DNA of 64,000 nucleotides from Noviherbaspirillum saxi (lineage in GTDB: Bacteria > Pseudomonadota > Gammaproteobacteria > Burkholderiales > Burkholderiaceae_D): assembly GCF_003591035.1 (NCBI RefSeq), contig NZ_QYUO01000003.1, forward strand, positions 1,389,602 through 1,453,601. The letters run 5' to 3'. The translations under genes and the position numbers were made by a program. The number at the start of each line of letters is the position of its first letter. Position 1 is the first letter of the stretch. Under the pieces are notes generated by a model. That model was not told the DNA's origin, made no database searches, and was given only the letters and a program-made list of their open reading frames with translations. Below are positions 37,657 to 53,749 of this stretch, one piece after another.

Positions 37657-38913
37657 CTATTCCCGCAAGCCGAGCACATTCATGAGTCGGTTAAGGTCTC
37701 CTTCCTCCCTGATGATCTCGGCCATCAGTTCAGGCAGCGGCATTCTTCCCCAGTTCACTGCGCGGCGCAGTAAATAAGGCGTCGGACTATGAGGTTCCAC
37801 GACGGCCAGATAATCTGCAATCGCCTCCAACGTAACATACGCTTCATGGCGGCTTTGCCAGTGTGAAAGGGTGACAGGCGGTGCCATGATCATTTCTCCT
37901 GCGGTTGCGCTGGACATATTAACGCCGTGGGGGACAGGAAGTTCTTCCATTACCGCCGGCTCGTTTTTAACGGGTATCAATTGTGTGAACACGCGCTCGA
38001 TCGAAGTGAGCGTCCCATGCAATCTGGCCAGGTTCGGCGAATCCATCCCTAGTTGTGTATCGACAAACGATGTCAGGGAACTCAGGCAGATAAGGCAACG
38101 GCGAACCAGGTCAATCCTGGTCTGAAGCTCATAATACAAATGCTGATGCGCATAGGAGATGACGTCTTCACGTATGAGCGGCAAGTCGCTGGAGTCCACG
38201 CCTGACGTCTTGTCGGTCGCATGATCCTGCCCGGATAGTTCTCTTGCGGTCAGGCGCTCCCAGTCGGCGAAGCTCACCTTCGGTGGTTTGCGACCGGCCA
38301 CGTTCAGGAGCGGGACGTGCACCTTCAGTGTCATGGACATCGACTCATTGAGCCACACCAGCGGCGCAATCCGCGCATCGCAGTCATTGTCTTCATCAAT
38401 CACCGGGTGCACTGCGGTCCAATGCTGCCGCAGCAACTCATCGACCAGATGCAATCCGCGGAGCAAGCCTTCAAATCCATGCTGGCGTGTCCATGACTCC
38501 AGCAGCCAGACTGCAAGTTGCAGATCCTTGGACCGGTTGGCAAGCATGCCCTTGCATCGATCTTCGATAAACACCCAGTCGGCCCGCTTGAGCGGCCGCT
38601 CCCATTGTCCCATTGGCAAACTGGGATCGTCTTCCTCGCGTGCGAGACGGATTTCGGTAAATGCCGGGTCATACCGCATGGCCGGACCACAGGGTTCATT
38701 TTCTGTGATCGGCGCCAGCAACACTTCCAGCTCTGCCTGATGGTCAGGATTCATAAGGATGCGGGGTTTCTCCTCGCCGGGTGGGCTCATCGGTAATATC
38801 TCCATGTGCACAGGCGCGGGTGCGGGAACTGAAGTCGGACTGGATACTAACGAGCGTGCCTTGTCATACAGATCCGATAAACTAGCAGCAAACATCTTCT
38901 TTCGAGTGGCCAT
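37657..38913 (-). CDS. tssA: T6SS protein TssA (ImpA type)
   Basis: A 418-residue T6SS assembly protein that caps or coordinates tail-tube and sheath building. The ImpA N-terminal domain is clear: LLAPITENEPCGPAMRYDPAFTEIRLA near residue 65, ADWVFIEDRCKGML and KDLQLAVWLLESW. The C-terminal part ends with ADYLAVVEPHSPTPYLLRRAVNWGRMPLPELM, the short TssA type. The chosen ATG lies 21 bases after the formyltransferase stop. An in-frame start at 38961 would overlap that gene. It is the last gene of the T6SS operon. Confidence 0.9.
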   Translation of the reverse strand: MATRKKMFAASLSDLYDKARSLVSSPTSVPAPAPVHMEILPMSPPGEEKPRILMNPDHQAELEVLLAPITENEPCGPAMRYDPAFTEIRLAREEDDPSLPMGQWERPLKRADWVFIEDRCKGMLANRSKDLQLAVWLLESWTRQHGFEGLLRGLHLVDELLRQHWTAVHPVIDEDNDCDARIAPLVWLNESMSMTLKVHVPLLNVAGRKPPKVSFADWERLTARELSGQDHATDKTSGVDSSDLPLIREDVISYAHQHLYYELQTRIDLVRRCLICLSSLTSFVDTQLGMDSPNLARLHGTLTSIERVFTQLIPVKNEPAVMEELPVPHGVNMSSATAGEMIMAPPVTLSHWQSRHEAYVTLEAIADYLAVVEPHSPTPYLLRRAVNWGRMPLPELMAEIIREEGDLNRLMNVLGLRE

Positions 38914-38933
38914 ATAAATCAACCCGGCTTGGG

Positions 38934-39602
38934 TTATTCCATTGCATAGTCGATCTCGCACAATGCAAGTAACTTACCCAGTTCCTGCGCGAAAAATTTT
39001 GCTGCCAACGGTGAGGACGACTTATGCAAGTCGATAACGGAAGCGTCCGGGGGGAAGTAAATTTTTTCTGATATTGCGATCAATCTGCCGGTATCAAATC
39101 CATCATCGACCTCGTGCATCGCAATCACCGCGTGATCGGATTTATTCTCCAGCAAGGCATGAAACGGATTAGGTCCGGCGTAATGAGATGGCCAGCCATC
39201 ATCAATGCAAGGATGGAGATTATAAAAACCCATCTCTGGATACAGGAACAGGCGCGAACTGATACGTTGGCCGAATGTGGCGGAGATACAAACGTCCGGA
39301 CACCATTCATTTTCGTATATATCGTAAAACTCTTCGGTCTTTACTCGCCCTTTGTATAGGGGAATATGATGCGCCACGGCGAGCTGTTCCACCATGACTT
39401 CTTCGGTCTTCGTATGTGGATAGCTCCAGACACGGCGCTCACGGCTCACGAAAGTTGAGGAGACATCATCCGTCGCTACACCTACCACCTCTACCTGCCT
39501 GGCAAGAGGTCCTTTGAGCATTTCGCTCAGTACATGAAATCCCCGGTAAAAGCTACCGAATACGGCGACACGAACTTTACGCTGCGGCTGGAAGGATGAC
39601 AT
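38934..39602 (-). CDS. Formyltransferase-like protein inside the T6SS operon
   Basis: A 222-residue protein with a formyl-transferase (10-formyl-tetrahydrofolate) fold. The catalytic residues expected for this family are present: Asn128 and His130 in FYNLHPCIDDGWP and Asp170 in DDGFDTG. The usual HxSLLPxxxG loop is changed. The C-terminal OB domain of methionyl-tRNA formyltransferase is absent, so it is closer in size to sugar N-formyltransferases or formyl-transferase-like proteins. Base composition is more AT-rich than in its neighbours, suggesting acquisition. It lies between tssM and tssA on the same strand. Its acceptor and any role in secretion are unknown. Confidence 0.7.
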   Translation of the reverse strand: MSSFQPQRKVRVAVFGSFYRGFHVLSEMLKGPLARQVEVVGVATDDVSSTFVSRERRVWSYPHTKTEEVMVEQLAVAHHIPLYKGRVKTEEFYDIYENEWCPDVCISATFGQRISSRLFLYPEMGFYNLHPCIDDGWPSHYAGPNPFHALLENKSDHAVIAMHEVDDGFDTGRLIAISEKIYFPPDASVIDLHKSSSPLAAKFFAQELGKLLALCEIDYAME

Positions 39603-39727: not shown

Positions 39728-42700
39728 CTACAAAGACGGCACACGGACCGGGAAAGTACCAGGCCAGACCAGCGGTGTGCGCTTGCCCGCAGGACTTATG
39801 GTTAGTCGCGCATAGACACGGGCACGCGATGCGCGTGGCTGTGCACCCGGATTTGCACTATTGGTGATCAGCGGAAATTCAAACCGCAATAGCTGCGATC
39901 GTGCATCGGTCCCGGAAGAAGAATCTGTATCTCGGTGTGTGGTAATGAATGAGAATAAAGCCCACGGATCGTCAAACCGGTAAGTAACAGTGCGGTCCTC
40001 GACCGTCATATCCCTTTGAACCATCTCCGCCACCGGGACGACCGGACCATCACGCGCGACACGCATGGTCAGCACAATCGGCAATCCCGGCTCCCATCTG
40101 AGCGGCCGAACCGGATCGCGCAATCGCATCGTCTGGCTGCCGACCGTCAGGGACCAGTCAATGATCTTGTTGCCGTCGATTTCAGATGCCGAATTGGCAC
40201 GGAATTCCACTGTCAGGTCCATGCCGGGCACCTGGTTATCTTCAGTCGGATAAAGGGGTGCGAGGAACTCGCGCACCCGTTGCATCTGCTCTTCAACCCG
40301 TCGTACCGGTGCCGATGCCATGACGCGTGATGGTTCGCGCGCAGTTGCAAGGGAGACGGTATTCGAGCGCTCAAACAGCTTAAGTACTTTCCCAACCTCT
40401 TCTATATCGGCAGGACTACGGTCAGCGGCAGTGCCTTTGATGGTGGGATCGAGTGCCGCCGGCCTGAACGGAAAACGATTCGCAAGATCACGGTTGAATG
40501 TATCGGCAAAACGGTTCCATGCTTCCTGATATTCATTGTGCTTGATTTCGCGGCACCGGGTATACAAGCCCGCCTGCAACACTTGCATCCGTTCGGAGAA
40601 CGGATCTGCAGCGCGCCGCTGGCCCGCGCGCGATGAAAGCTTTTCCATGCAATTCTTCAGATCCACTTCTGTCGCGCCGGAAAGAACGAATTGTTCAAGC
40701 GCCATGAGACTGCTGGTCGGGCTCTTCAGACGGTAACGGTTCAGGTCAGCCACGATAGCCTGCCAGCGCGTCACAAGCGGATTGCCGGAATGGGTAGCTC
40801 CCAGCTGCTGCAAGAGTCCTTCTGCATCCTTGCCGGCAGTATCGATGAATGCCTGTTGCTGGGCTACATAGGCCGCCAGGGTAGCCGCATCAATGGCGCC
40901 GAAGGCGTCAATCAGCGGCGATTTTTCCCCACTCCATGTACGGAAAGCGATATCCCGTGGCATGAATATTTCGGCCCGCGCAAAGGTATTGTCCAGGAAT
41001 TGCAAGCGCGATAACGCATCCTTTGCCAGTACGGCTGACAGACTATCCGCTGCGGATTCGCCGCCCAGTTCACGCAACCAGGCGCGCAATTGCAATGCGC
41101 GAGTGCGGTCCGCTTCAGGCGCGGGAGCCTGGACTTCGTTGACCGACACAATAAATGCCTGCGACAGCAGGTCGCGTGCGGTTTCTGCCAGAGCGGCATC
41201 ATTCAACCTTGCCACCGGGGCTTGCAGCATGACCGGAAATCTGGTCAGCAATTCAGTCTGAAACCGTTTGCGCGCGTCGGCCAGTGCCAGGGCCTGATCG
41301 AGCCGTCCTCGATTCCAGGTAACTGTCGCACCGGCAGGAACATCGGGAATGCGGCTGAGTTTATTTACCTTCATGTAGGGTTGCGCGAGCAATGCCGACA
41401 ATGCGTCCACCAAGGCCTTGCGGGCCGGCGAAAATGCCCAGGACGACGATGTGTCCGACCATGCCAGACCTGGCGTCATGCTTTGCGAATACTTGTCGGC
41501 GGTGAGCGTCTCGTCCCAGGCGGTCAGGAATTTGGCAAAGCCATCCTCTGCCTGACTCTGTGCGTCGCTGGCTACGCCTTTGCCAAGCAAGGAAACGGTC
41601 TGGACTCTTTGCAACAGCGCGTCATGGGCCTGCCCAAGCTGCATCGTGCGGCGCCGCATCCAGACGCCTTTACCAGAGGTCAGCAGCGCTTCCTGACGGA
41701 GAAGGGTTTCGTGCAAGGCTTGCCATGCTTCAATGGTAGCGACTGCATCAGACGCATTCGGTTGGGCGTCGATCAACGCAGATGCGGTTTGCGCAATGGT
41801 CTGCTCAGACTTGAGCAATCCATTGTTGGCAAAGAGTCTCTCGTAAGTCGCCTTCAGCGCCAGGTTGAGCGAGCAAGAGGTAGCGTCCTGCAATGGTGTC
41901 ACCGGAAGCGCCGGAGTACCTTGTATCGCTTGCCGGAACAGTTCGGCCGTGCGTGTGGCATTGCCGTTGAGTTCGGCACCCAGCAAGGCCCCGACCACAA
42001 GAGCCAGGTCCTCGCCCGATGCCGGATCGTCCGAGCTTTTAAGCCGGGTCATGGCGCGCACTACCCGGTCCAGTTCTTCAATGCGCCCCACATACTGCAG
42101 TGTGGCGCCGAACTCCGGCAAATCCTCGATGTTCAGTGCGGTACCGGGTTTGGCAAACGCTACTTCATTCCATTGCGCCGGCAAGGTGCAGCTTGCGCCG
42201 GCGATCAGATTGCCCGATGCCGGATCAACCGGTACACCGGTAAGCTGGCTTGCACGCCGGTATATCTCCCGGCGCATCGGGTCGAATGCGTTGTCGGCAA
42301 ATCCTTGTTCAAGCTTGCGGTGGACGCGTATGTGCAGATCATCGAGCCACGGCCAGGAACCCGGCATGAATACCGAGCGCATGCGTGCCGAATCCATCCG
42401 CTCTATGTTCGTCAGTGCGTCCATCGCACGTTGCCGGCTTTGGGCCGGATCGATCACGTTGTTGTTGCTTGCCTCGATACTGTCGCGTGAATCGCGATCG
42501 AGCTTATGCAGGGAGACTGTGACGTCCTCCACCTGCCGGTGCAACTGCACGGATGCCACGCCCATTCCAACCAGCCATACGACCGGAACGCCCACCATCG
42601 TCCATTGCACTATGCGGCTCATTGCGGGCCGACGCATATGTTGCGACGCGGACGAACTGACGAGCCCTACTTCGGCAAAAATCTTGCGTTCGAAAACATC

Positions 42701-43855
42701 GCGCAGAAAGGCCGGGAGCGCACTGGACTGGCCCAGTACAAGCGCTCTGGATGACGAAAACGTGGGTTCCTCTGCAGTCTGCGGAAGTTCTGGCGTACTG
42801 TCCGGTTGATCCGACAGCAACCGGACATCCGTCCCGCCGGTCAGCGCAGCGACATCGCTGTAGTCACCCGTGAGGTAAATGCCTCGCAACAGAAAGGGTT
42901 CATGATATGCGCTCGGGCGCATCAGCTCTTCGGTGAATAACTTGAGACCCGCGCGCAAGCGTTCGACCTCATTCGGCAGCATGAAGTAACTGGCGCTGTT
43001 GGATTCCCCGGATTCAAGCGCGCACAGCTCGGAACAGGTGTCAGCCAGCGAGCGCACGACTTCATTCATTGCCGTGTCTACCCACTGCGACTGGAATGGC
43101 GCGACCAGCTCATACGGTGACGACCATCCCAGCATGGAGCGTCGCATCGGTTCCGGCAAGGCCGCTGAAAATGCAGTAAAGCCGGGAATGGTTTCGCAGT
43201 CTGCGATGACCAGGTAAATCGGAAAGCGCAAGGCAAGCCGGTTTTGCGCCAGCCAGAGGCGGCGATGAATCGACTTGGCACGCGCAACGAGGTCAAGCTG
43301 CGCTTGCGAGTCGGCCTGAAGAAATACGCTGGCCGGAATCGAAAGGACGATCGAATCAAACGGCCGGTCCGGGCGGTAATTACGGCAAAGACCCAGAAAA
43401 TCGTCCCAGGTATTCGTGTTGGCTGGTGCGTCCGGATCGGACGAACCCAATTGCTCGGACTGCAGCTGGACCGCGACGCCATTATCGAAGAAATTCCAGC
43501 TGATGCCTTGCGCAGCGGTGGTGAGCGTCGTGTCCGCACTGAGCGCACTCTGCAGCCCCGACTGCACCAGCGGTAACTCGCGCCCTTCCTTGCCCTCATT
43601 AAGGATCAGTGTCCACGACAGGTCATAGCGTTCGGAGCGAACGGCAAGATTACTTTCAATCAGCTCTACTGCGCTACGGAAGGAATGCTTGAGCGAGTCG
43701 GCACTGATCAGCCGGGGCTTTTGCTCTGCCGGCTTGTCCTGCTTTTCTGCGCCTTTCATTGCTGCCCAGATGACGATGCCAAGCAGCAGCAGGACGATCA
43801 ATGTAAGAGAAAGCAGTGTGAGAATTGCTGTGTTATCTGACAAAAAATTCAACAC
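39728..43855 (-). CDS. tssM: T6SS membrane-complex protein TssM (IcmF)
   Basis: A 1375-residue inner-membrane protein forming the T6SS envelope channel with TssL and TssJ. Two N-terminal hydrophobic segments are at about residues 10-32, and a third near 435 (IVQWTMVGVPVVWLVGMGVA) leads into the large periplasmic part. The IcmF cytoplasmic domain has a degenerate P-loop: where others have GxxGxGKT, residues 86-93 read NEGKEGRE, so ATP binding is unlikely. The C-terminal region (WSLTVGSQTMRLRDP, then WPGTFPVRV) is typical. The start is 17 bases after the tssL stop. Confidence 0.93.
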   Translation of the reverse strand: MLNFLSDNTAILTLLSLTLIVLLLLGIVIWAAMKGAEKQDKPAEQKPRLISADSLKHSFRSAVELIESNLAVRSERYDLSWTLILNEGKEGRELPLVQSGLQSALSADTTLTTAAQGISWNFFDNGVAVQLQSEQLGSSDPDAPANTNTWDDFLGLCRNYRPDRPFDSIVLSIPASVFLQADSQAQLDLVARAKSIHRRLWLAQNRLALRFPIYLVIADCETIPGFTAFSAALPEPMRRSMLGWSSPYELVAPFQSQWVDTAMNEVVRSLADTCSELCALESGESNSASYFMLPNEVERLRAGLKLFTEELMRPSAYHEPFLLRGIYLTGDYSDVAALTGGTDVRLLSDQPDSTPELPQTAEEPTFSSSRALVLGQSSALPAFLRDVFERKIFAEVGLVSSSASQHMRRPAMSRIVQWTMVGVPVVWLVGMGVASVQLHRQVEDVTVSLHKLDRDSRDSIEASNNNVIDPAQSRQRAMDALTNIERMDSARMRSVFMPGSWPWLDDLHIRVHRKLEQGFADNAFDPMRREIYRRASQLTGVPVDPASGNLIAGASCTLPAQWNEVAFAKPGTALNIEDLPEFGATLQYVGRIEELDRVVRAMTRLKSSDDPASGEDLALVVGALLGAELNGNATRTAELFRQAIQGTPALPVTPLQDATSCSLNLALKATYERLFANNGLLKSEQTIAQTASALIDAQPNASDAVATIEAWQALHETLLRQEALLTSGKGVWMRRRTMQLGQAHDALLQRVQTVSLLGKGVASDAQSQAEDGFAKFLTAWDETLTADKYSQSMTPGLAWSDTSSSWAFSPARKALVDALSALLAQPYMKVNKLSRIPDVPAGATVTWNRGRLDQALALADARKRFQTELLTRFPVMLQAPVARLNDAALAETARDLLSQAFIVSVNEVQAPAPEADRTRALQLRAWLRELGGESAADSLSAVLAKDALSRLQFLDNTFARAEIFMPRDIAFRTWSGEKSPLIDAFGAIDAATLAAYVAQQQAFIDTAGKDAEGLLQQLGATHSGNPLVTRWQAIVADLNRYRLKSPTSSLMALEQFVLSGATEVDLKNCMEKLSSRAGQRRAADPFSERMQVLQAGLYTRCREIKHNEYQEAWNRFADTFNRDLANRFPFRPAALDPTIKGTAADRSPADIEEVGKVLKLFERSNTVSLATAREPSRVMASAPVRRVEEQMQRVREFLAPLYPTEDNQVPGMDLTVEFRANSASEIDGNKIIDWSLTVGSQTMRLRDPVRPLRWEPGLPIVLTMRVARDGPVVPVAEMVQRDMTVEDRTVTYRFDDPWALFSFITTHRDTDSSSGTDARSQLLRFEFPLITNSANPGAQPRASRARVYARLTISPAGKRTPLVWPGTFPVRVPSL

Positions 43856-43871
43856 TGTAGGATCCTAACTG

Positions 43872-44699
43872 TCAGACGTGAGAGTTGAGCGGCGCAACAA
43901 GCGCACCTGCGTTCGCTGACAGCGCCTCACGTACCGGCCACGACTGCCACAGCCAGAGCAGTTCCGATAAGCCTAGCAAGAACAGCAGCGCCAAAAGGAC
44001 GATGACACCGCTGCGGTTGATTCTTGGCAGCCGCCTTGCGGCAATGTGCGACAACGTGCTGGCATAAGGCTGTTCCGACAAAGTGCGGTCACGGCCATGC
44101 ATGTCTGCCGGCCGCATATAAATAAACTGAAACAGCTCGCGACGGTATTCGGCGATTTTGCTTTGTCCTGCGGTACCGCGATAACGACCCTGGAACCCGA
44201 GCGACAGCAGATAGAGGTATAGCCGGCCGACATGGCGCCGCGATGCTTCCCGCTCGCGCAGCAGCTGGTCCAGGTCGTCAAATACACGTTCGCCGGCAAA
44301 GCTGGATTTGAACAAGGTGGCTTCGATCAGGACATGGCGCCAGTACGAGCGCCCTGCCCAATCGGTATTGAGCAGCACCTCGTCGGCCAGTGCCGCTTTG
44401 AGGAACCGGCCTTGCACTTCGGCTTCGATACCGGCTTTGCCGCCGACACGGCGCGCTTCCAGGGTTTGCAGCTCGATCAGCTGGCACAACTGGCCGCTTA
44501 GTGACTCGGCCGCCGACTTGGCATCGGCATCGCCTACCTGCCCTGCCGTCTGCGCCAGGCGTGACAGCACATCGAAAAAATCGCGGAACTGAACCGAAGC
44601 AAGGTCTGTTCCGTCACTGATCGCACTGCCTGCCGAGCTGAGTTGCAGCCGCTGCGAAGGACTCTGGGTAGTTATATTCGATTGAGTGGTCACGATCAT
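43872..44699 (-). CDS. tssL: T6SS membrane-complex protein TssL (DotU)
   Basis: A 275-residue DotU/TssL protein. The cytoplasmic helical domain contains FKAALADEVLLNTDW-like sequence (FLKAALADEVLLNTDWAG) and LYLYLLSLGFQGRYRG near residue 165. One C-terminal membrane helix is at about 230-250 (GVIVLLALLFLLGLSELLWLW). There is no peptidoglycan-binding OmpA domain, so cell-wall anchoring must come from another protein. The start overlaps the last base of the tssK stop codon, showing tight coupling. Confidence 0.92.
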   Translation of the reverse strand: MIVTTQSNITTQSPSQRLQLSSAGSAISDGTDLASVQFRDFFDVLSRLAQTAGQVGDADAKSAAESLSGQLCQLIELQTLEARRVGGKAGIEAEVQGRFLKAALADEVLLNTDWAGRSYWRHVLIEATLFKSSFAGERVFDDLDQLLREREASRRHVGRLYLYLLSLGFQGRYRGTAGQSKIAEYRRELFQFIYMRPADMHGRDRTLSEQPYASTLSHIAARRLPRINRSGVIVLLALLFLLGLSELLWLWQSWPVREALSANAGALVAPLNSHV

Positions 44700-46024
44700 C
44701 AGCCCTTAATGAACAGAACCACTTCATGGGGACGCTGAGCAAGCGTACTTTCATTCCCGTTACTGATCAGCAGTGGCTGGTCAGCGACAATAAAGTTGTC
44801 CGACACCTCGATACTGAAGAGGGTATAGCCCGAACTGGAGCGCAAGCCCAATTCAGGCGCATCATCGATGCGCCGCCGCGGCGCACCCAGCACCCTGCGA
44901 TCGGTAAGCGAAGTCCACACAGTCTCGGAGCCGATCACCGCACCGGACATCCACTGCGACAGCTCACGCTCCGGCTGACCGCGCAAGCCGATGACCAGCC
45001 GCGTACCAACCCAGTCCGGCTGCATCGACAGCGAGAATGCCTGACTATCAAAGCCAAACGTGCAGGTCTTCCATTCCTGGCTAACCTCGTCGACCAGATC
45101 GGAAAGCGCGCTCAGCACCGCATCGAACGCGGGATAAGCGTCCGCGTGGTCGTATGCTGGCGGGAGAATCGGGACCGCGCCGGGCCGCAATGTCGCCAGC
45201 GAACCGAGCTGGGCGCACAGCGCAAGATACAGCGGCACCGGTTGCACTACCGGACAGCGCAGCACCGCTTCGAGCACCGGCAAGTTAAGGATCAGGCTCG
45301 ACAGACGTGCTTTTTGCTCAAGAATATTCAGGCGGTCTTCCAGGCGCGACGAAGGCGATGCGGTCTGCCGCGCCAGGAACACTGCCTTGCTGCGCATATG
45401 CGCAGCAAGCAATTGGGCGCGCTGCCGCAAAGGCGATGTGGCAGGCACTTCCAGCATGGCCGGCAGTGCGGTACCACGACGCACGATTTCGTTATCCTTG
45501 CGCACGGTCATGAGACGCAGATAGACGTATGCCGCCGACGGTACCGGTCCGGCAGCCAGCGACAGGTTGATTGCCATGCGAGGAATATCCGCCGCCAGCG
45601 CCTGAGACACTTCATCTTCGACCAACTGTCCTTCGACACCGCGAAACATGGTGGGCTGCCCCGGCGCACGTTGCGACCGTGTTTTGCCGACCACAAGATA
45701 CACCGACAAGTCCTGCAATTCCATGTCCGCCGACCATGGCGACAAATCCAGCTCCAGCGACTGCCCCCGGGATTGCTCGAAATCAAAGGTCGCCGCCATG
45801 CCATTCGGTAGAATGGCTTCAATGGAAAAGATCCGTAACAGCCCGGTCGTCAGCAGTGCTTCATCGATCACGAGATTGCGAACACCCCAGCCATAGGGCT
45901 GCGTTGCCATCGATTGCCAGGCCAGGAGTGCATCAATGCGTGCGCCTTCCTGCTGAAAATGCTGCGGCGTCAGCAGCATTCCTTCATGCCACTGAATGCG
46001 GTCCGAGAGTTGAAGAGATGTCAT
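44699..46024 (-). CDS. tssK: T6SS baseplate protein TssK
   Basis: A 441-residue TssK (VasE-like) baseplate protein that links the baseplate to the TssJLM membrane complex. The N-terminus IQWHEGMLLTPQHFQQEGARIDAL is characteristic, as are PYGWGVRNLVIDE, the central helical part (AHMRSKAVFLAR) and the C-terminal FSIEVSDNFIVADQPLLI. Length matches the family. The gene follows tssJ by 17 bases. Confidence 0.94.
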   Translation of the reverse strand: MTSLQLSDRIQWHEGMLLTPQHFQQEGARIDALLAWQSMATQPYGWGVRNLVIDEALLTTGLLRIFSIEAILPNGMAATFDFEQSRGQSLELDLSPWSADMELQDLSVYLVVGKTRSQRAPGQPTMFRGVEGQLVEDEVSQALAADIPRMAINLSLAAGPVPSAAYVYLRLMTVRKDNEIVRRGTALPAMLEVPATSPLRQRAQLLAAHMRSKAVFLARQTASPSSRLEDRLNILEQKARLSSLILNLPVLEAVLRCPVVQPVPLYLALCAQLGSLATLRPGAVPILPPAYDHADAYPAFDAVLSALSDLVDEVSQEWKTCTFGFDSQAFSLSMQPDWVGTRLVIGLRGQPERELSQWMSGAVIGSETVWTSLTDRRVLGAPRRRIDDAPELGLRSSSGYTLFSIEVSDNFIVADQPLLISNGNESTLAQRPHEVVLFIKG

Positions 46025-46041
46025 TAAGAGCGTTCCATGTT

Positions 46042-46605
46042 CTACTGCGCGGCGCCAGGCTTGAATTCACTGACCGTGAAACTCTGTGCATTCAACTGCA
46101 CAGAATAACCTGTGTTGTTAAGAAGCAGCCGGGCGCGATGTTCGCCAGGCGAAGCGTAATTGGCAAAAACAATCGCTGCCCATGCACGCTCCTTGCCGAA
46201 ATGCTTTTCATCGAGTCGAACCGCCTGAGTAGGGACCAGCTCATACTGATACACGGTAAACGCTTCAGGAAAGGTGCGCCGCAGATCGTGTCGTGAAGTG
46301 AACCACTTGGTGGCCGGCATCGTAAGCAAGGTATCCAATACCGCCTTGTCCTTAACGAGCACCAGGTCCACTGCCAGTGCGCTATTTGCATTCGCGTCGT
46401 CTGCAGCGGTGATTGCAAGAGATTTCCAGTCCGGTTCCACCGGTTTGGGATCGAGTCCGATCAGGGAGCGCGACCCCGCTACAACGCTGTTAAGTGCACT
46501 ACATCCGGACAGAACGACCATCACAAAGGCGACAAGCAGCACCCAGCTATAGCGCCTGGCAAGAGCATGATTAATTTCATCGGTCGGATTAGTCGGTCGT
46601 AGCAT
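46042..46605 (-). CDS. tssJ: T6SS outer-membrane lipoprotein TssJ
   Basis: A 187-residue lipoprotein of the TssJ family, anchoring the membrane complex to the outer membrane. The lipobox LSGC places the modified Cys at residue 35 after a hydrophobic stretch (WVLLVAFVMVVLSG). The following domain has KAVLDTLLTMPATKWF and a C-terminal FANYASPGEHRARLLL, in keeping with the beta-sandwich fold. It starts only 12 bases after the symporter-fold gene at 46617, so the transporter genes and the membrane-complex genes form one transcription unit. Confidence 0.85.
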   Translation of the reverse strand: MLRPTNPTDEINHALARRYSWVLLVAFVMVVLSGCSALNSVVAGSRSLIGLDPKPVEPDWKSLAITAADDANANSALAVDLVLVKDKAVLDTLLTMPATKWFTSRHDLRRTFPEAFTVYQYELVPTQAVRLDEKHFGKERAWAAIVFANYASPGEHRARLLLNNTGYSVQLNAQSFTVSEFKPGAAQ

Positions 46606-46616
46606 CGAAGTGACTT

Positions 46617-48047
46617 TTATATGGCAAATGGGATGGTTTTACGCAAACCGAATCCGACACCGGCGCAAAAAACCGCTAAGAATGCGATCGCCAACAGTAA
46701 AGATCCGAAGAGTGCCTGCTTCCGGCTGAATGTCAGCGTAATAGAAAACGCATGCCAAACCTCAGAAACTTGCCCATTATTAATATACAGCCCATCAGAC
46801 ACGAGTGCAAATAAAGCGGACGACACTAGAAACGACAGCAGATTGCGCGCGCCCTCACAAATCCCTTCAATCAGTATGAAAACGGGCAGCACTGCTTCTA
46901 ATGGTAGTCCTAAGGAGTTCATGACGAATGTCCCCATAATCACGGACTTGACCCCGAAGACACCGACCGACCATAGCGCAGCCAGCCACGACAGCAGGCA
47001 TATCGTTGTCACTTCACCAACGGTCAGCGTGTGGCCATAGAGATTGGCGATGAAAATTGCAAGCACCGAGAAAAAGAGTGCCTCGCCAGCTTTGACAAAG
47101 ACCGGGGCGATCGGTGAATACAACTCCACCAGGCCACGGCTAAAGCCGAGTCTGACGCTCATGCTATGGATGAACCCAGGTACGGCCGCCACCGCCACCG
47201 GAGAAAAAAGACATACCGTGATCGGCTCGCGCAGCGCCATCAAGACTTCCAGCGGGGATTTTTTCAGCCGCCATGCAATCGCACTGATCGACGCCGCACA
47301 GATCAGCAATGCCGCGGTAAAAAAAGCCCCGAGAAAACTCTTTAACAACACCAGGACTTCGAGACCGGCAGCGCTGGTGGCCGCCGCTGCGAGCACGAAC
47401 GCCGCTGCCGGCAGCAAAGAATTGAATCGATTGACCAACGACTCGAGCGCGCGATAAATACCTTCGAGGATGCCGGTCAGATGCGCGGACGCGTCCGGCT
47501 TTTGCGCCGCCACGGCAATTCCGAACACCAGCGCGCCGATCAGGACGGAGGGAAGCGACCCGAACGCCAGTACGGCATAGAAGTTGTCCGGAATGATCGA
47601 CGGGACTTTCAGCAGGTCTTGCGTATCGGCGCTGATGTCGCGCAGGGACATCATGAACTGAGACTCGGACTTCAAGGCAAACCCGCCCAGTGCCTCGGCT
47701 TCATTGCCCGCGATCCCCGCCCCTGCCGATGTCAGGCTGGCAACCAGGATCCCGACGACCGAGCACAAAAGCATCGCGATCACCGACAACACGATCATGA
47801 GAAACAGCCGTCGTCCGCTTTTCGGCAATGACGGCAAGCGCTGCAATCCAAAAAATACCGCCAGCACGACAAACGGCAACGATGCCACCTGAATCAGCGA
47901 CAGATACAGCGTCGATATTGCAGACATGACCGAGACGCTTTCCGGGAACAGCGTGCCTGTCCAACCGCCCAGCAAGACAGCGGCCAGCAGCGTCGCCGGA
48001 TGCTGGAAAATCTCCCTCAGCTGAATGAGCGGTCTCTTCTGGATCAT
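46617..48047 (-). CDS. Atypical dicarboxylate-symporter-fold protein 1 in the T6SS locus
   Basis: A 476-residue inner-membrane protein with about ten hydrophobic segments, distantly like the sodium:dicarboxylate symporter (DAACS/SDF) family. The N-terminal half (LREIFQHPATLLAAVLLGGWTGTLFP, LSLIQVASLPFVVLAVFFGL) and GSLPSVLIGALVFGIAVAA show the family pattern. Near the position of the NMDGT sodium/substrate motif it reads KAGEA. The later DRxRTxxNVxGD region reads EGARNLLSFLVSSAL. Transport by the usual mechanism is therefore doubtful. It overlaps the preceding related gene (ATGA) and is followed by tssJ. Possible roles are uptake of an unusual solute, sensing, or immunity. Confidence 0.68.
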   Translation of the reverse strand: MIQKRPLIQLREIFQHPATLLAAVLLGGWTGTLFPESVSVMSAISTLYLSLIQVASLPFVVLAVFFGLQRLPSLPKSGRRLFLMIVLSVIAMLLCSVVGILVASLTSAGAGIAGNEAEALGGFALKSESQFMMSLRDISADTQDLLKVPSIIPDNFYAVLAFGSLPSVLIGALVFGIAVAAQKPDASAHLTGILEGIYRALESLVNRFNSLLPAAAFVLAAAATSAAGLEVLVLLKSFLGAFFTAALLICAASISAIAWRLKKSPLEVLMALREPITVCLFSPVAVAAVPGFIHSMSVRLGFSRGLVELYSPIAPVFVKAGEALFFSVLAIFIANLYGHTLTVGEVTTICLLSWLAALWSVGVFGVKSVIMGTFVMNSLGLPLEAVLPVFILIEGICEGARNLLSFLVSSALFALVSDGLYINNGQVSEVWHAFSITLTFSRKQALFGSLLLAIAFLAVFCAGVGFGLRKTIPFAI

Positions 48048-49330
48048 AGCTGCACCGGCCTTGGGCAAATGACGGACACTGCTGCGCAGCCTGCAATCAC
48101 GGTAACCGCGGTTCTCGCCATCGCACACACCGGATCGACCGCTGCGAACAGCAGGAATGCGGCTTCAAATGGCAGCCCGAGATAGCTGCAGGTCGTGCCG
48201 ATCAGCGAAATCGTGACGATCCCGGCCATCCCGGCGGATGCGAATCCCAGCATGATCGAGACCAGCATCAGCAAGCCGACGTCAAGCGCCGAAATGGGAC
48301 GGCCGTACAGCGCGGCGATAAACAGGGTGCCGCAAATGTAATAGGCAACCGGCCCCATCCGCAGGAGCGAAATGCTCAAGGGCACCAGCAATTCGACCCG
48401 CGAACGTGCGAAATTGAGCTTGTTGACGAGGCCGCTCACCATCGCCGGCATACAGGTCGCGCTGTTGTTGGTCGCTACGCCCAGTGCAAATGGCTCGCGC
48501 ATGGCAGCTACTACCGTTTTCAGCGGCACATCGGCGCGGCGGCCGATCAGCGTGACCGCAAGCGCCAGCAGGATCGCGCATATCACCAGGAATGCCGCCA
48601 CAAATCCGGCCATCGCCTTGAGCGGCTCCAGGCCGGTCTCCGCAATCTGGCTGGCGGTCATGCAAATCAGGATGAACGGTACCGGCAGGTTGATCCAGTG
48701 TGTCAGTGTCTCGCACGCGACATAGATCGTCTCAAGCGCGTGATTCAGGCCGGTCGACATACGGGTAGGCACCTGGCCGACCGCGAACCCGAACAGCAGC
48801 GCGAACACCAGCGCCTTGAGGGTTTCGCCATTCGCCAGCGAAGCAAAGATATTCGACGGGATCAGGGAGTGAAGAATATCCTGCAGGGTCATTGCCTTGG
48901 GCGGCTCTTCCGGCGTTCGCAACGACATGTCGGTATTGGTCTGGTTTGCATCGATGCTGACGATATTGCCAAGTGCGGCAAGCGTCTCCTGCGGCAGGTC
49001 GCTGCCCGGACGGAATAGCAGCGAGCCGGCCGCCGCGAGCACCGCCGTGACTACCGAGATGGCAACAAAGACGATCACGACACTTTTGACTATCCTGCCG
49101 GCCCCGCCGTCACGGTATAGATTCTGCAGGCTGAAGATGACGGCCGAAATCATGAACGGCAAGACAATCATCTTGAGCAGATCGACATAGACGACACCGA
49201 CGATTCCCAGATTCCTGGAGAACGCCGGCGCGGCCCAGCCCAATGCCCCACCCGCCAGGACGCAAGCCAGCACGGTCCACGGATTTAAGGCCCAGCGTTG
49301 AAAACGCTGCATTCCGGTCGGGATATCCAC
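48044..49330 (-). CDS. Atypical dicarboxylate-symporter-fold protein 2 in the T6SS locus
   Basis: A 428-residue inner-membrane protein with a clear DAACS/SDF fold: PWTVLACVLAGGALGWAAP, YVDLLKMIVLPFMISAVIFSLQ, SLIPSNIFASLANGETLKALVFALLFGFAVG and SAGMAGIVTISLIG. Family motifs are altered. The NMDGT position reads approximately RMGPV, and the NVxGD position after MARTAV reads VIAGC. The Arg in MARTAV is kept. Together with the adjacent relative it may form a heteromer. It starts 10 bases after the stop of the binding-protein gene, all on one strand with T6SS genes on both sides. The substrate is unknown. Confidence 0.75.
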   Translation of the reverse strand: MDIPTGMQRFQRWALNPWTVLACVLAGGALGWAAPAFSRNLGIVGVVYVDLLKMIVLPFMISAVIFSLQNLYRDGGAGRIVKSVVIVFVAISVVTAVLAAAGSLLFRPGSDLPQETLAALGNIVSIDANQTNTDMSLRTPEEPPKAMTLQDILHSLIPSNIFASLANGETLKALVFALLFGFAVGQVPTRMSTGLNHALETIYVACETLTHWINLPVPFILICMTASQIAETGLEPLKAMAGFVAAFLVICAILLALAVTLIGRRADVPLKTVVAAMREPFALGVATNNSATCMPAMVSGLVNKLNFARSRVELLVPLSISLLRMGPVAYYICGTLFIAALYGRPISALDVGLLMLVSIMLGFASAGMAGIVTISLIGTTCSYLGLPFEAAFLLFAAVDPVCAMARTAVTVIAGCAAVSVICPRPVQL

Positions 49331-49340
49331 AGGCTTCTCT

Positions 49341-50312
49341 CTAGTTCATCAGTTTCAGTACGCTCGCCACAGTCGGCTTTTCCGGACGCTGGGCTATCAC
49401 CTCGTTGACAAACGAGAGCAAGGTCGCATCGCGCACACCGATCATCATGCTCAATGACGATTCGAGATCATTGAATGTCACGGTGCGCAGGGTTAACGCA
49501 AGACTCGGATCGCGCCGCAAAATAGCCATCACTTCCAGTTCATCCCGATAGGCGGCAACGACTTCGCCCTTTTTTACCGCCGCAACGGCGGCGGTCCAGC
49601 TGGGATAAGGGATGATCTTTGCATCGGGAAAATTCCGGCGCCCGAATTCCTCCCATGAGGAACTGGCGATCACGCTGATCCTGCCGGTGAAGTTGCGGAG
49701 AACCTGTGGCGGCGGACGTCCGCCCGAAAGCTCGGCAAAACGCACACGGTTGATCAACAGTGCATGGCCAAGACGCATATACGTGCTGGAGAAATGCACG
49801 AACTGCCCACGCTTCAAGGTTTTGGCGAGCCGGCTGATGCCCAGGTCCGCCTGACCATTGGCGACGATTTCAGCCACGCTGTCGTAAGTCTCCGGCGAGC
49901 GGTCAAAGCGCACCGGAACGCCCAGTTCCTTCCCGATCAATCTGGCGAGATCGACATCCGTTCCGCTCAGTTCGCCATTTTTTTCAGCAAAGAATGGTGG
50001 ATTGTCTATTTTGAGCATGGCAACAACCAGCTCACCGCGATTGACGATGCGCGCAATATCCGGCGCCAGCCAACGGCCATCGGCGACCTTGACCAGCGGT
50101 GACTGCGATGCCGGTTCTGCCGGCATCGGGGCAACCGCCGGGGCCGGAGCAACCGCGGCGGAACGTGTGAGCGCGACCTTTTGCGGCGTAACAGGATCAG
50201 CGAACGTCCAGCCATGCACACAGGCACACAGCAGGATAAGGCTGCTAACAAGCATCCGTCCGCCGGACCAGCGGCGCGAATGGATTCGTTGAGTATGCAA
50301 ACAGGCGTTCAT
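49341..50312 (-). CDS. Periplasmic solute-binding protein (SBP_bac_3-like) in the T6SS locus
   Basis: A 323-residue exported protein. An N-terminal signal or anchor (MLVSSLILLCACVHGWTFA) is followed by a Pro/Ala-rich linker of about 40 residues. An amino-acid-ABC-type binding domain comes next: RIVNRGELVVAMLKIDNPPFF, then GELSGTDVDLARLIGKELGVPVRF and IVANGQADLGISRLAKT. No ABC permease or ATPase gene is present. Instead two symporter-fold genes follow, which do not normally use a binding protein. The ATG at 50312 is preferred; a TTG at 50327 overlaps the previous stop. Its ligand and partners are unknown, and the pairing is unusual. Confidence 0.8.
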   Translation of the reverse strand: MNACLHTQRIHSRRWSGGRMLVSSLILLCACVHGWTFADPVTPQKVALTRSAAVAPAPAVAPMPAEPASQSPLVKVADGRWLAPDIARIVNRGELVVAMLKIDNPPFFAEKNGELSGTDVDLARLIGKELGVPVRFDRSPETYDSVAEIVANGQADLGISRLAKTLKRGQFVHFSSTYMRLGHALLINRVRFAELSGGRPPPQVLRNFTGRISVIASSSWEEFGRRNFPDAKIIPYPSWTAAVAAVKKGEVVAAYRDELEVMAILRRDPSLALTLRTVTFNDLESSLSMMIGVRDATLLSFVNEVIAQRPEKPTVASVLKLMN

Positions 50313-50323
50313 GATGGCATCTT

Positions 50324-50596
50324 TCAAGGAACTGGCTTCGGCGTCCAGGCCGCCTTGTCCACACCCGGTGTAGCAGCAGCGGCAATGTCAGAGCTCATGC
50401 TGCCTGCCATCCGGGTTGCGGCCGCAGCATCCGCCTTGGCGTTGGCGACATAGCTGGCCGGGGTTGCCTTTGGTGTGGCGCCACCCATCCGCTGTCCGAC
50501 CTGGAAGCCGAGCGTAAAAAGCAGGGCCAGTAACGAGACGCCGCAGAACAGGGTCAGGGCTATCAGGCGCGGTGTCAGGCTGAATCGATATTCCAT
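50324..50596 (-). CDS. Small single-pass membrane protein in the T6SS locus
   Basis: A 90-residue protein with one membrane helix near residues 10-33 (LIALTLFCGVSLLALLFTLGFQVG). An Ala-rich, mostly polar tail of about 55 residues (ANAKADAAAATRMAGSM) is probably periplasmic and disordered. The ATG at 50596 is taken; a GTG at 50605 is also possible, and neither has a strong ribosome site. It lies between the PAAR-like gene and the binding-protein gene, whose reading frame begins at its stop. I do not recognise a family. It could tether the binding protein or be part of the secretion machine. Confidence 0.6.
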   Translation of the reverse strand: MEYRFSLTPRLIALTLFCGVSLLALLFTLGFQVGQRMGGATPKATPASYVANAKADAAAATRMAGSMSSDIAAAATPGVDKAAWTPKPVP

Positions 50597-50617
50597 GATG
50601 ATCACGCTAAAAATTTG

Positions 50618-51004
50618 TTAAGGAACCATGACGGTAAACTGTCCGGGGACATCAATACCGATCACCCCGCCCCACATGCACATCAGTTTGGAGGAGTTAT
50701 TCAGTGCCGGCATATTGCCGGTCAAAACGGTCGGAGCGCCAGGAACCCATGGCGCAGCCGTCGCTGGAATACAAGGCATCGGTGTCAGGACTCCGAGCGC
50801 AGCGGCGGTTGCAGCCGCCACCATGGGGTTGGAAACCGACTGGCACATCCCGAACGGCAGAATATTCACGAACGGCTTGTTGTCCATGATGTTGGCAGCC
50901 GGCGTCCCGGTCAGAACCCCATTGACCGGCAATACGACCAGGCTTGCCGGCGCTACCCCAAAGGTGCACCGGAGCATCGCACCCATGCAGACTTGTTGTC
51001 CCAT
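50618..51004 (-). CDS. DUF4280 PAAR-like T6SS tip protein
   Basis: A 128-residue protein of the DUF4280 (PAAR-like) group, which sharpens the VgrG spike or carries effectors. Conserved features are VCMGAMLRCTFG at the N-terminus, the NILPFGMCQSVSNP segment near residue 48, PCIPATAAPWVPGAP near 77 and SKLMCMWGGVI near 105. Paired Cys residues suggest a metal site. No toxin domain is fused to it. It overlaps the MORN-protein gene by one base, in the order vgrG, MORN protein, PAAR-like. No classical PAAR protein is seen in the window, so this is the likely tip. Confidence 0.85.
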   Translation of the reverse strand: MGQQVCMGAMLRCTFGVAPASLVVLPVNGVLTGTPAANIMDNKPFVNILPFGMCQSVSNPMVAAATAAALGVLTPMPCIPATAAPWVPGAPTVLTGNMPALNNSSKLMCMWGGVIGIDVPGQFTVMVP

Positions 51005-51759
51005 CAGCCTCCCCTCACCAGTTTTTGCAGCCGCTCCAGCAGATCGGGCGTGGCGGCGGCGGTGTCGGTGCGTCGTCCCTTTGTGTCATACCGTGCCGGC
51101 GTCCCTACGGGTACGCCATTGCGGTAGGTCACTTCTTCCATCAGCTCGCCATCCGGCCAGAACCGCCGCATCGGCCCATGCAGCACGTTGGCGCGATAGA
51201 TGCAGGTCTGGACAATGCTGCCCTGCCGGTCGAAATCGACTGATTCGCCTTCAAGGAGTCCTGCCTTGTACTGCGATTTGCGCATTCGTACGTCTTCGTG
51301 GAAAAACTCCGCCGCCCCCTGAATCTGTCCCTTGACGTAATTCATCCGCGCGGTCAGCAGGCCCGCCTCGTCATAAGTCAGCGCTGGTCCCGAAGGAATG
51401 CCTTCAACCAGGTTCTGGACCGATACGCAGCGCCCATTCACATACATTTTCATGGTGCCGTGCGCTACACCCTGTACGTATTCGGACTCCTGCGCGAGTG
51501 CACCCTCTTCCGTATAAATCGCCATGCTTCCATGCAAAAGGCCGGCCTCGTAATTCGCCTTGAACAACGGCACGCCGTTGTCTCCGAATTTTTCCAGCAG
51601 GCCTTGCAATTTACCGTCGAGGACCCGGCAACGCAGCACGACTTGCCCGTCATCGCCGGATTCCTCGATCAGCTGCGGCACCATGCCGGTTGCGGCAGCG
51701 GGTGAATCGGCCGCTGCGGCTTCCTGCGATGCATCGTGATGATCAGGAGGTCGGTTCAT
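51004..51759 (-). CDS. MORN-repeat (YwqK-like) protein between vgrG and the PAAR-like gene
   Basis: A 251-residue protein built of about seven MORN-like repeats of roughly 23 residues, seen as LLHGSMAIYTEEG, VAHGTMKMYVNG, LLEGESVDFDRQG and VLHGPMRRFWPDGELMEEVTYRNG. An acidic, Ala-rich N-terminal 30 residues precedes them. Proteins of this kind occur next to VgrG and DUF4280 genes and are sometimes annotated as YwqK-type antitoxins, but their role is not settled. It starts one base after the vgrG stop. Adaptor, chaperone or immunity functions are all possible. Confidence 0.75.
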   Translation of the reverse strand: MNRPPDHHDASQEAAAADSPAAATGMVPQLIEESGDDGQVVLRCRVLDGKLQGLLEKFGDNGVPLFKANYEAGLLHGSMAIYTEEGALAQESEYVQGVAHGTMKMYVNGRCVSVQNLVEGIPSGPALTYDEAGLLTARMNYVKGQIQGAAEFFHEDVRMRKSQYKAGLLEGESVDFDRQGSIVQTCIYRANVLHGPMRRFWPDGELMEEVTYRNGVPVGTPARYDTKGRRTDTAAATPDLLERLQKLVRGG

Positions 51760-51760
51760 A

Positions 51761-53745
51761 TCAATTCAGCTTTACCAGCGAACCTTTAAGGACCAGCATT
51801 CCGCCTGCTTCCACGGTGTTCATGCCGTCGGCTTTACTACTGATGATTGGCGCCTTGCTTTCGATCTGCGCTGTGCCCTGATTCACGATCTTGAGTCCCT
51901 TGTTGGTCAGATTGGTGCCCGCTTCGTTCGTCAGGGCGGTTCCCGCCTTGGCATCCAGCGCCGTCCCGGCTTCAAGCTTGAATGCGGTTTGTGCTTTCTG
52001 CTCGATCGCTGCACCGGATTTGATCGTGATCCCGCCGGTCGCTTCGATGGTCAGTTTGCCGTCGATCTTGAGTTGATAGTCACCTGTTACCGTATGGGTA
52101 AATTTACCCGAGTTGGTATGGCTTTCGTCGCCGGTCACCTCCAGCGTGCGCGTCCCCTTGACCTTGTGGGTTTCCTTGCCTTTTTTCAGTTCGATGGTAC
52201 GGTCGCCTTCGTCCAGGGTATGGATTTCCGCTCCCTTTTTCACGGTCGTGGTCAGTGCATTTTCGATTTCGACCAGCATGTCCTTTTGCGCATGCATATA
52301 CAGCTGCTCGGCATCTTTCTTGTCTTCGAAACGCAGTTCATTGCCTTCGGCTCCCTGCTTTGACGAACGGGTGCGAATCACCGTCTGGGTCTGATTTGCC
52401 GGCAAGGTCACCGGCGTGGCATTTTCACCGTTGTACACACAGCCGGTGACCAGCGGCCGTTCCGGATCGCCATTGAGGTAGGTGATCACTACTTCCTGAC
52501 CAACCCGGGGCAAAAACAACGCGCCGAATCCCTTGCCCGCTGCTGATTGCGCTACCCGGATCCAGGTTGAGCTCTTGTCATCCTTGACGCCGTCACGGTC
52601 CCACGGGAATTGCACCTTGATGCGGCCATGCTTGTCCGTCCAGATTTCTTCGCCGCTGGGGCCAACCACGAGCGCGGTTTCGCATCCTACCGCACGCGGC
52701 CTGGGTGTCTGGACAGGCGGCCGGAATGGCACCGTCGCCGGAAAGGCTTCGAACGAATTGGTGTACAGGTCATCGTGTGCGGTATGGTGAATCCGCCGCA
52801 ACACAAATGCTGCATTCAGGCTGGTGACGAAATGATCCTTGAGCGTGAATTTGGTCCCTGCCGTAAAGGAATAGCAAAAGCTATCGCCGCGCAATATTTC
52901 GGCCGATACCTGGCTGGCTTCTACCCGTAACTTGGCAATGGCAGTGCCGGCCGCGACCGCCAGATGGCCGGCAGCAAATTCATAAGTCGCACCGTCGCCG
53001 GCAGAAGCCGAGTGGGTTCCTTCAAGCGACGTGCTCGGCTTCACAAAATCATAGTCGTTGACAATCGCCTTCTTCAAGGCGATACCGCTTTCATACGCAA
53101 ACCGCGACACCGTATCAATGGGATTTTCCATGCCGGTTTCCGGGAAAAACCGTACGGTTGCGGCGCCGGTGCAGCTCGCAAAGTTGGACGTCGCATCTCC
53201 CAGCACCATGGTGTGACCACTGCTGGTGCAGGTAAAGAAATAGAAGATGCCCGCCTGTTCCATCAGGCGGGAAATAAAATCGAAGGCGGTTTCATCGTAC
53301 TGGACGCAATAGTCCAGCGGGTCATACGTCTGCGTCAGCTTGTCGGAGAAGGTGATGCCATATTCCGTCAGCACTGCCTTGATGATGTCCGCAACCGATT
53401 TCGTCTGGTAGATCTTGCGGTCGCGTGAGAGCGTCAACAGCCACAGCTTCGGCACCAGTTCCGCCTCGTAGCTGGCGAACTCCCGATTAAAACCGCTCTG
53501 AATAAAGCGCGACACGATACCGGTGATATAACGGGCGGTGCCGCCCTTGATCGCCATCTTGACTGTCACGGATTTGGCGACGATGCTGGCGGCACTCAGG
53601 CTGGTCTTCTCCGAGCGCATATGCAGGTTGAACTTGAACAGCTCCGAAATACCCTCGCTGCCTTCCATGGCATCGAGCAGCAGATCATCTGTCCCAAACG
53701 GTGTCGTGACTGTGAGCAGACCTCCCGCTTGTTTGAATCCGGTTC

Positions 53746-53749
<4 letters not shown>
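51761..53749 (-). CDS. vgrG: T6SS spike protein VgrG (TssI)
   Basis: A 662-residue spike protein. The gp27-like part opens with TVTTPFGTDDLLLDAMEGSEGISELFKFN (split here by the usual loop) and has YCVQYDETAFDFISRLMEQAGIFYFF near residue 145. The OB-fold region has GPSGEEIWTDKHGRIKVQFPWDRDG near 370 and WIRVAQSAAGKGFGALFLPRVGQEVVI. The C-terminal beta-helix needle consists of short repeats such as AGTALDAKAGTALTNEAGTNL and ends KGSLVKLN. No extra effector domain is fused. It overlaps the clpV stop by four bases. Confidence 0.95.

Follow-up and report, generated by a model that had tools for sequence, protein, structure and literature searches.

A periplasmic binding protein and two DAACS-fold proteins without the Na+ motif inside a type VI secretion operon of Noviherbaspirillum saxi

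The cassette and its altered DAACS-fold proteins

The 64,000-nucleotide stretch of the Noviherbaspirillum saxi genome analyzed here (the window; G000:C3:1389602-1453601, with all coordinates given as positions within it) contains a type VI secretion system (T6SS) operon in which four genes are located on the minus strand between a DUF4280/PAAR-like gene and tssJ. They encode a small protein with a single transmembrane (TM) segment, an amino-acid-type periplasmic substrate-binding protein (SBP) and two DAACS-fold membrane proteins, SDF1 and SDF2. The original prediction had described four same-strand genes with gaps or overlaps of about 12 bases or less between the vgrG/MORN/PAAR-like genes and tssJKLM, and both this arrangement and the identities given to the four products are borne out by the coordinates and family matches. 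The cassette is confirmed as real and as linked to T6SS. What is new here, as read from the sequences, is the loss of the Na+-binding NMD motif together with SBP pairing, the existence of such pairs without T6SS, the alternation of a racemase with a formyltransferase, and the pattern of amino-group residues; for the wider SBP-SDF module no description was found in searches of open-licence papers.

The SBP gene (49341..50327) matches SBP_bac_3 (PF00497, E 6.6e-15), and the PDB matches of its product are amino-acid SBPs. SDF1 (48044..49330) and the more altered SDF2 (46617..48047) score 183 and 125.6 bits against PF00375, for which the curated cut-off is 27.9 bits, placing both in the DAACS/SDF family; they are two of the three PF00375 matches in the whole genome. 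SDF1 is 92% identical to the copy in Noviherbaspirillum sp. Root189. The SDF2 frame opens at 48128, with ATG 48047 as the likely start, and an AF2 monomer model of the protein (pLDDT 78, pTM 0.78) has the ancestral uncoupled aspartate transporter 9bgz as its top Foldseek match. The predicted structure of the SBP is of low confidence (pLDDT 69, pTM 0.45), and therefore no pocket geometry was taken from it. The small TM protein (50324..50605, 93 aa, with ATG 50596 as an alternative start) owes its TM assignment to inspection, having no Pfam match and no NCBIfam match at 0.001; in some of the T6SS loci tblastn detects a similar small protein in the corresponding position.

The genes are tightly packed. 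The PAAR-like and TM genes are separated by 12 bases (21 with the ATG 50596 start), the TM and SBP genes overlap by 4 bases (or lie 11 bases apart with the SBP starting at ATG 50312), 10 bases separate SBP from SDF1, SDF1 and SDF2 share a 4-base ATGA overlap, and 11 bases separate SDF2 from tssJ; with the outermost starts no gap exceeds 12 bases, and of the 4-base overlaps one is certain and one possible. A promoter and terminator of its own had been named beforehand as evidence that would separate the cassette from the T6SS genes. In a consensus scan of positions 45500-52000 against shuffles, limited for promoters to the sigma-70 type, we obtained 2 promoter-like sites (shuffle mean 2.7) and 5 terminator-like sites (shuffle mean 6.4), an excess of neither, and so there is no sign of the cassette as a separate unit. 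Neither an ATP-binding cassette (ABC) ATPase or permease nor a DctQ/DctM-type membrane protein of a tripartite ATP-independent periplasmic (TRAP) transporter is present in the cassette, where the membrane partners are PF00375 proteins and the neighbors are SDF and tss genes.

To compare functional positions, the SDF proteins were aligned against GltTk and are numbered as in GltPh. SDF1 has Leu-Arg-Met at 310-312, Gly at 405 and Ala at the position of Asp394; Arg397 is kept, and the HP2 stretch is recognizable. SDF2 has Val-Lys-Ala at 310-312 and Ser at 405. Asn310, Asp312 and Asp405 are thus all lost from the window proteins, Met311 is replaced by Arg or Lys, and the combination of NMD motif and Asp405 that marks Na+ coupling is found in neither. 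Among the tabulated copies Asp312 is kept in none, and Asn310 and Asp405 are each kept in 2 of 90 SDF1 rows. Passages of PMC12668577 assign to the NMD motif the coordination of Na1-3 and of the substrate, and report Na+-independent aspartate binding by a reconstructed ancestor. Given the loss of the Na+ sites, ordinary concentrative Na+ symport is disfavored.

The surrounding operon and the distribution of the module

Upstream of the cassette, also on the minus strand, are vgrG (tssI; 51761..53749, labeled by inspection from its position and the conserved order), a MORN_2 repeat (YwqK-like) gene (51004..51759; PF07661) and the DUF4280/IglG-like PAAR-like gene (50618..51004; PF14107, the IglG model remaining under its cut-off). 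Downstream, on the same strand, SDF2 is followed directly by a tssJ-like gene (46042..46605), tssK (44699..46024; TIGR03353, 229.9 bits, over cut-off), tssL (43872..44699) and tssM (39728..43855), the last two labeled by inspection in the same way as vgrG. A gene for a 222-aa formyltransferase (38934..39602; Formyl_trans_N, PF00551) is placed between tssM and tssA (37657..38961; TIGR03363, 274 bits, over cut-off), beyond the range covered by the original prediction. The earlier statement that the cassette runs straight into tssJ stands as far as the short gap is concerned, with the qualification that the tssJ label itself comes from position and conservation, TIGR03352 giving an E of 0.051, below cut-off; a tssJ homologue occurs in 55 of 89 loci. 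A second TssK, encoded on another contig of this genome (G000:C2:1142992-1144320), scores higher against the standard model, at 430.7 bits.

An SDF1-alignment scan of genome contigs retained 80 of 111 relatives, which together with Paraburkholderia phymatum (L114) and Gemmobacter (L115) make up the 82 fetched loci (L034-L115); a set of 89 loci includes L146-L152 as well. By a score of at least three of ten markers, 60 of the 89 loci are T6SS loci, and three short contigs with one or two markers (L084, L102 and L103) were also entered as T6SS, bringing the total to 63. T6SS clusters accordingly account for 63 of the 82 fetched loci, and in 19 of the 82 there is no T6SS gene in the stretch examined; the query consisted largely of T6SS-like rows, which tilts the sample to T6SS. 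As the same gene order recurs in dozens of the 82 loci, the order is not due to chance, and within a T6SS clade the cassette keeps its place in the tss operon, as a T6SS accessory would. In a sample of the family, TssK matches were found in 13 of 195 genomes. The co-occurrence with T6SS that the original prediction had proposed to check is seen here, with an SDF1 orthologue in all 8 genomes in which TssK is at least 65% identical; the 5 genomes with a TssK of 40-42% identity have no SDF1 match among those listed. The prediction of a T6SS-linked module that pairs a binding protein with DAACS-fold proteins, probably for sensing or uptake, is upheld; the module is not confined to T6SS.

SDF2 is present in 58 of the 60 T6SS-scored loci; in the other two (L064 and L089) the sequence stops shortly after SDF1 or the racemase. 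The gene is also found in three clear non-T6SS loci (L050, L052 and L115). A Gemmobacter aquarius plasmid carries SBP, SDF, racemase and SDF in this order, with no T6SS gene annotated within the 17 kb shown. Nucleotide cyclase genes were counted, on the basis of open reading frames, in 7 of the 29 loci that fell short of the T6SS score and in 0 of the 60 T6SS loci; an eighth cyclase (L109), a tblastn match only, was missed in this count. The dCache_1 domain is below its cut-off in the L063 and L151 cyclases, and the L148 cyclase has a different architecture, with AAA and TPR domains and no Cache match. At L148:3506-8043, two SBP-SDF pairs converge next to this cyclase-AAA-TPR regulator, and the Na+ motif is intact in neither SDF.

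Of 337 genomes from a different class in this phylum (presumably Alphaproteobacteria), 82 had a match to a broader SDF profile at 1e-45, and 20 of the best 22 new places were fetched. Sixteen of the 20 SDFs lack the NMD motif, and an SBP gene is adjacent or one cyclase gene away in 15 of these 16, whereas none of the four intact SDFs (N-M/L-D-G-T) has an SBP in its region. Class III cyclases occur in 10 of the 20 regions, eight of which have the order SBP-cyclase-SDF; the five of these ten cyclases that were scanned have dCache_1 and Guanylate_cyc over cut-off. One region (L214) has an extra Asp_Glu_race gene upstream, and no T6SS gene was seen in the more distant SBP-SDF regions. The pairing with cyclases favors sensing.

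The contig ends with the window, so the region upstream of tssB was read in two Noviherbaspirillum relatives. Both have, upstream of the T6SS cluster, an SBP_bac_3 protein of 541-542 aa (L239:9429-11733 and L240:10827-13140), ABC-permease-like in the second half of the L239 copy, and a second protein of 231-232 aa, permease-like in L239. This T6SS thus has another binding-protein/transporter-like pair next to it; no ATPase was recognized among the neighbors scanned. A protein of about 1300 aa without clear family precedes tssB (L239:13756-17655 and L240:13862-17911), and a frame at 63115-63966 of the window aligns with the C-terminal end of this protein (41% over residues 1072-1296 of 1299).

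Partner enzymes and amino-group residues

Each of the 89 loci was sorted by its partner enzyme: 45 have a racemase, 28 a formyltransferase, none has both and 16 have neither, including contigs that end just past SDF1 (L064 and L103). The window has no racemase between its SDF genes and carries the formyltransferase between tssM and tssA instead. A formyltransferase of this kind was found in 17 of 392 family genomes (E of 1e-20 or lower), and tssM and tssA flank all 17. In nine non-T6SS loci it is next to SBP/SDF1, among them in the row formyltransferase-SBP-SDF1 at L048, L054, L055, L060 and L063 (with a 4-base overlap of the formyltransferase and SBP genes in the first four) and in the row formyltransferase-cyclase-SBP-SDF1 at L053, L056 and L082. 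Judged by its gene neighborhoods, the formyltransferase is likely to be the enzyme partner of the module. Of the 45 racemases ten were tested, and all ten score above the NCBIfam cut-offs for cysteate racemase (CuyB) and amino-acid racemase. At least 95% of 29 formyltransferase sequences share Asn128, His130 and Asp166, and at least 95% of 45 racemase sequences share Cys89 and Cys203; we take the former to be the GART-type catalytic Asn/His/Asp and the latter to be the catalytic Cys pair. Downstream of SBP-SDF1 at L055:11332-15363 (also in L054, and partly in L049 and L060) are genes for an NMT1_3 binding protein, a TPR/secretin-domain protein and a pentapeptide-repeat protein, the families of this row having been scanned in L055 only.

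According to passages of PMC12668577, with which PMC7682989 agrees, Arg397 of DAACS proteins is the ligand of the side-chain carboxylate and Asp394 that of the amino group. Residue 394 of SDF1 is Asp in 45/45 racemase loci and Ala or Thr in 28/28 formyltransferase loci, and residue 276 is Arg in the same 45 and Asn or Ser in the same 28. Arg397 is kept in 43/45 and 28/28, respectively, and most copies of either type have lost Asn401, which binds the main-chain carboxylate. On the side of the SBP, Arg173, Ala168 and Asp262 would be equivalent to Arg77, Ser72 and Asp161 of LAO, by alignment and spacing rather than by structure. Arg173 is kept in 87/87 rows. The position of LAO Ser72, five residues before Arg173, is Ser in 45/45 racemase rows and Ala or Gly in 28/28 formyltransferase rows (27 loci and the window). 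In the relevant passages of PMC5740067 and PMC4192606, LAO Ser72 and Asp161 hold the amino group of the ligand, and in NocT, which binds the N-substituted nopaline, Ser72 is replaced by a Gly that is needed to fit the substituent. Among 104 SBP-SDF pairs, in which L224 is entered twice and L148b and L149b are poorly aligned at the SBP motif, Asp394 accompanies Ala or Gly at the Ser72 position in 0 of 33, Ser or Thr at that position is combined with Asp394 in 63, and 8 are mixed. As aligned, then, the predicted amino-group-binding residues are kept in racemase loci and changed in formyltransferase loci, and the carboxylate-binding arginines are mostly kept. SBP position 290 is Asp in 45/45 racemase rows and Ser or Ala in the 28 formyltransferase rows.

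An SDF1 tree of 89 rows was made by a quick method with the functional columns taken out and with L150, the SDF of which is split across two frames, excluded. The enzyme type changes once on this tree, residue 394 three times and the T6SS context nine times. Independent repeats of the match between enzyme and residues were sought on it, and a single switch was found; the match is therefore treated as one coordinated switch, and no statistical support is claimed from the 28 and 45 loci. The tree suggests that, while T6SS context was gained or lost several times, each enzyme remained associated with the same SBP-SDF1 clade.

Interpretation and comparison with known systems

We tentatively favor, at slightly short of an even chance, a reading of these gene and residue patterns in which the module is an SBP-coupled, Na+-uncoupled DAACS receptor or valve for a small acidic amino-acid-type ligand, N-formylated in the window, with T6SS or a cyclase as its output. 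The SBP would capture a small carboxylate-bearing ligand in the periplasm and pass it to SDF1, perhaps in a mixed trimer with SDF2, and SDF1, uncoupled from Na+, would serve as a receptor or two-way valve. The amino-group form of the ligand would be set by the cytoplasmic partner enzyme, so that the ligand may be an acidic amino acid (aspartate or cysteate, for example) in racemase loci and an N-formylated acidic amino acid in formyltransferase loci, the window included. Its state would be relayed to the neighboring output, TssJLM in T6SS loci and, in some other loci, a nucleotide cyclase, and in T6SS loci the module might thereby gate or tune assembly or firing. What the residues of both the SBP and SDF1 match is the formyltransferase product, in which the amino group is blocked, rather than the substrate of the enzyme; this suggests a ligand that is produced in the cell and subsequently read or released.

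Several observations weigh against the receptor or valve reading. The switch between enzymes is single on the quick SDF1 tree, without independent repetition of the enzyme-residue match, and neither enzyme was seen in 16 of the 89 loci (some on cut contigs). The amino-group ligand Asp262 (LAO Asp161) is kept in 85/87 SBP rows, formyltransferase loci included, and OccJ, in passages of PMC5740067 and PMC4192606, binds the N-substituted octopine yet keeps Ser at the Ser72 position. The DctA-like protein L231 has Ser at 394, and loss of Asp394 would fit an amine-free dicarboxylate as well. Among the cyclase-linked SDFs of the other class, Arg397 is lost in 5 of 10 and residue 311 is Gln or Leu in some. 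The distant, cyclase-linked L148 has the formyltransferase-type residue pair (Gly, Ala) with neither enzyme, and Massilia L051 and L058 carry formyltransferase-type residues without the formyltransferase. Finally, PMC8356804 found constitutive expression of P. phymatum T6SS-b on malate and on aspartate, and the highest expression on citrate, which gives no pointer to an amino-acid ligand, although this is a promoter result. A broader claim, that an amino-acid-type SBP and Na+-uncoupled DAACS proteins form a widespread receptor family that reads a metabolite with its amino group set by an adjacent amino-acid racemase or N-formyltransferase, with a cyclase or, in Burkholderiales, T6SS as output and the window as an N-formyl-amino-acid-gated T6SS, is at present doubtful.

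The main rival is an SBP-dependent transporter, which we consider rather unlikely. By this account the SBP and the SDF pair would take up a dicarboxylate or an acidic amino acid in a TRAP-like manner, the enzyme would process the cargo, and the link to T6SS would be nutritional, through material from killed cells. The DAACS fold (by sequence for SDF1 and by model for SDF2), the HP2 stretch and Arg397 of SDF1, the amino-acid-binding arginine of the SBP and the cut-offs passed by all ten tested racemases are what such a transporter would be expected to show. It would, however, have no Na+ motif as its driving means, it does not account for the cyclase partners in a number of loci or for an SDF2 even more altered than SDF1, and a formyltransferase makes little catabolic sense, the SDF1 and SBP residues matching its product and not its substrate.

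Export of a home-made signal is improbable. Here the enzyme would make a D- or N-formyl amino acid, SDF1 would release it down its gradient and the SBP would read the outside level as a self or kin signal; the amino-group residues of SDF1 and the SBP do track the enzyme product and the Na+ motif is lost, but the product is a candidate only, the 16 loci with neither enzyme are unaccounted for, and the evolutionary switch is single. We give little credence to the proteins being ordinary dicarboxylate symporters placed in the operon by chance, in line with their annotation and discussion in PMC8356804, where a role in sensing or use of plant C4-dicarboxylates is considered. Membership of PF00375 fits this, as does the replacement of Asp394 in the window (compare Ser394 in the DctA-type L231); the loss of the Na+-motif residues with Arg or Lys at 311, the retention of Asp394 in racemase-type copies and the SBP partner do not, and the alignment discussed in that paper pointed to a substrate other than that of DctA. 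An ordinary C4-dicarboxylate symporter is thus disfavored by the loss of the Na+ motif. An effector/immunity unit with an inner-membrane target, also put forward in the original prediction, has its site after the vgrG/PAAR-like genes in its favor and was rejected as very improbable, since the orthologous order is conserved over dozens of loci and SBP-SDF pairs occur in non-T6SS loci, and the families are SBP and SDF with no toxin-like match.

The original prediction knew of no description of such a cassette, which does not hold because PMC8356804 (2021) reports it in T6SS-b of P. phymatum STM815 (SecReT6 i4a). The order given for this cluster is YwqK, PAAR-like, hypothetical protein, amino-acid ABC binding protein, symporter, aspartate/glutamate racemase and symporter; a similar cluster is noted there in fifteen strains, with the racemase missing in a Janthinobacterium, and the symporters are called intriguing and unreported to the authors' knowledge. 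T6SS-b shares with the window, in the same order, YwqK, the PAAR-like gene, the small hypothetical protein, the SBP, both symporters and tssJKLM, and its SDF1 is 53.7% identical; it differs in having the racemase between the symporters, where the window has the formyltransferase between tssM and tssA. Passages of PMC5732942 describe weaker competition by a T6SS-b tssI mutant and a Ser/Thr kinase gene upstream of T6SS-b. The passages cited here mention no mutant deleted for the cassette itself, and no such kinase was recognized among the genes scanned upstream of tssB in the two Noviherbaspirillum relatives. The present comparison turns the 2021 curiosity of symporters inside a T6SS into a testable class, that of SBP-linked, NMD-less DAACS proteins beside cyclases, racemases, formyltransferases and T6SS. 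If the proposed role is true, a T6SS would have a small-molecule input, the glutamate-transporter fold would be convertible to a receptor, and the type of ligand would be predictable from residues.

With GltPh, GltTk, DctA and GltP the window proteins share the fold, the HP1/HP2 layout and Arg397, and they differ from them in the lost NMD motif, Arg or Lys at Met311, the lost Asp405 and the SBP partner, as well as in the changed Asp394 of formyltransferase-type SDF copies. TRAP and ABC systems likewise combine a periplasmic SBP with a membrane protein, but the membrane partners in the window are PF00375 proteins, with no ATPase and no DctQ/M proteins. BvgS-type sensors and the LAO and NocT binding proteins have related SBP domains; unlike these, the window SBP is a separate protein beside DAACS-fold proteins. 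Trans-membrane signaling to the H1-T6SS of Pseudomonas aeruginosa may be the closest working parallel to the proposed module. The membrane proteins responsible, which we take to be TagQRST, include the ABC-derived TagTS; unlike that system, the window genome has no VI_FHA match over cut-off, the three weak FHA matches being on other contigs. That membrane proteins encoded in the H1-T6SS cluster signal across the membrane to the T6SS is stated in a passage of PMC8356804 citing Casabona 2013, and the SBP and its DAACS-fold partners would be a counterpart built from a different transporter family.

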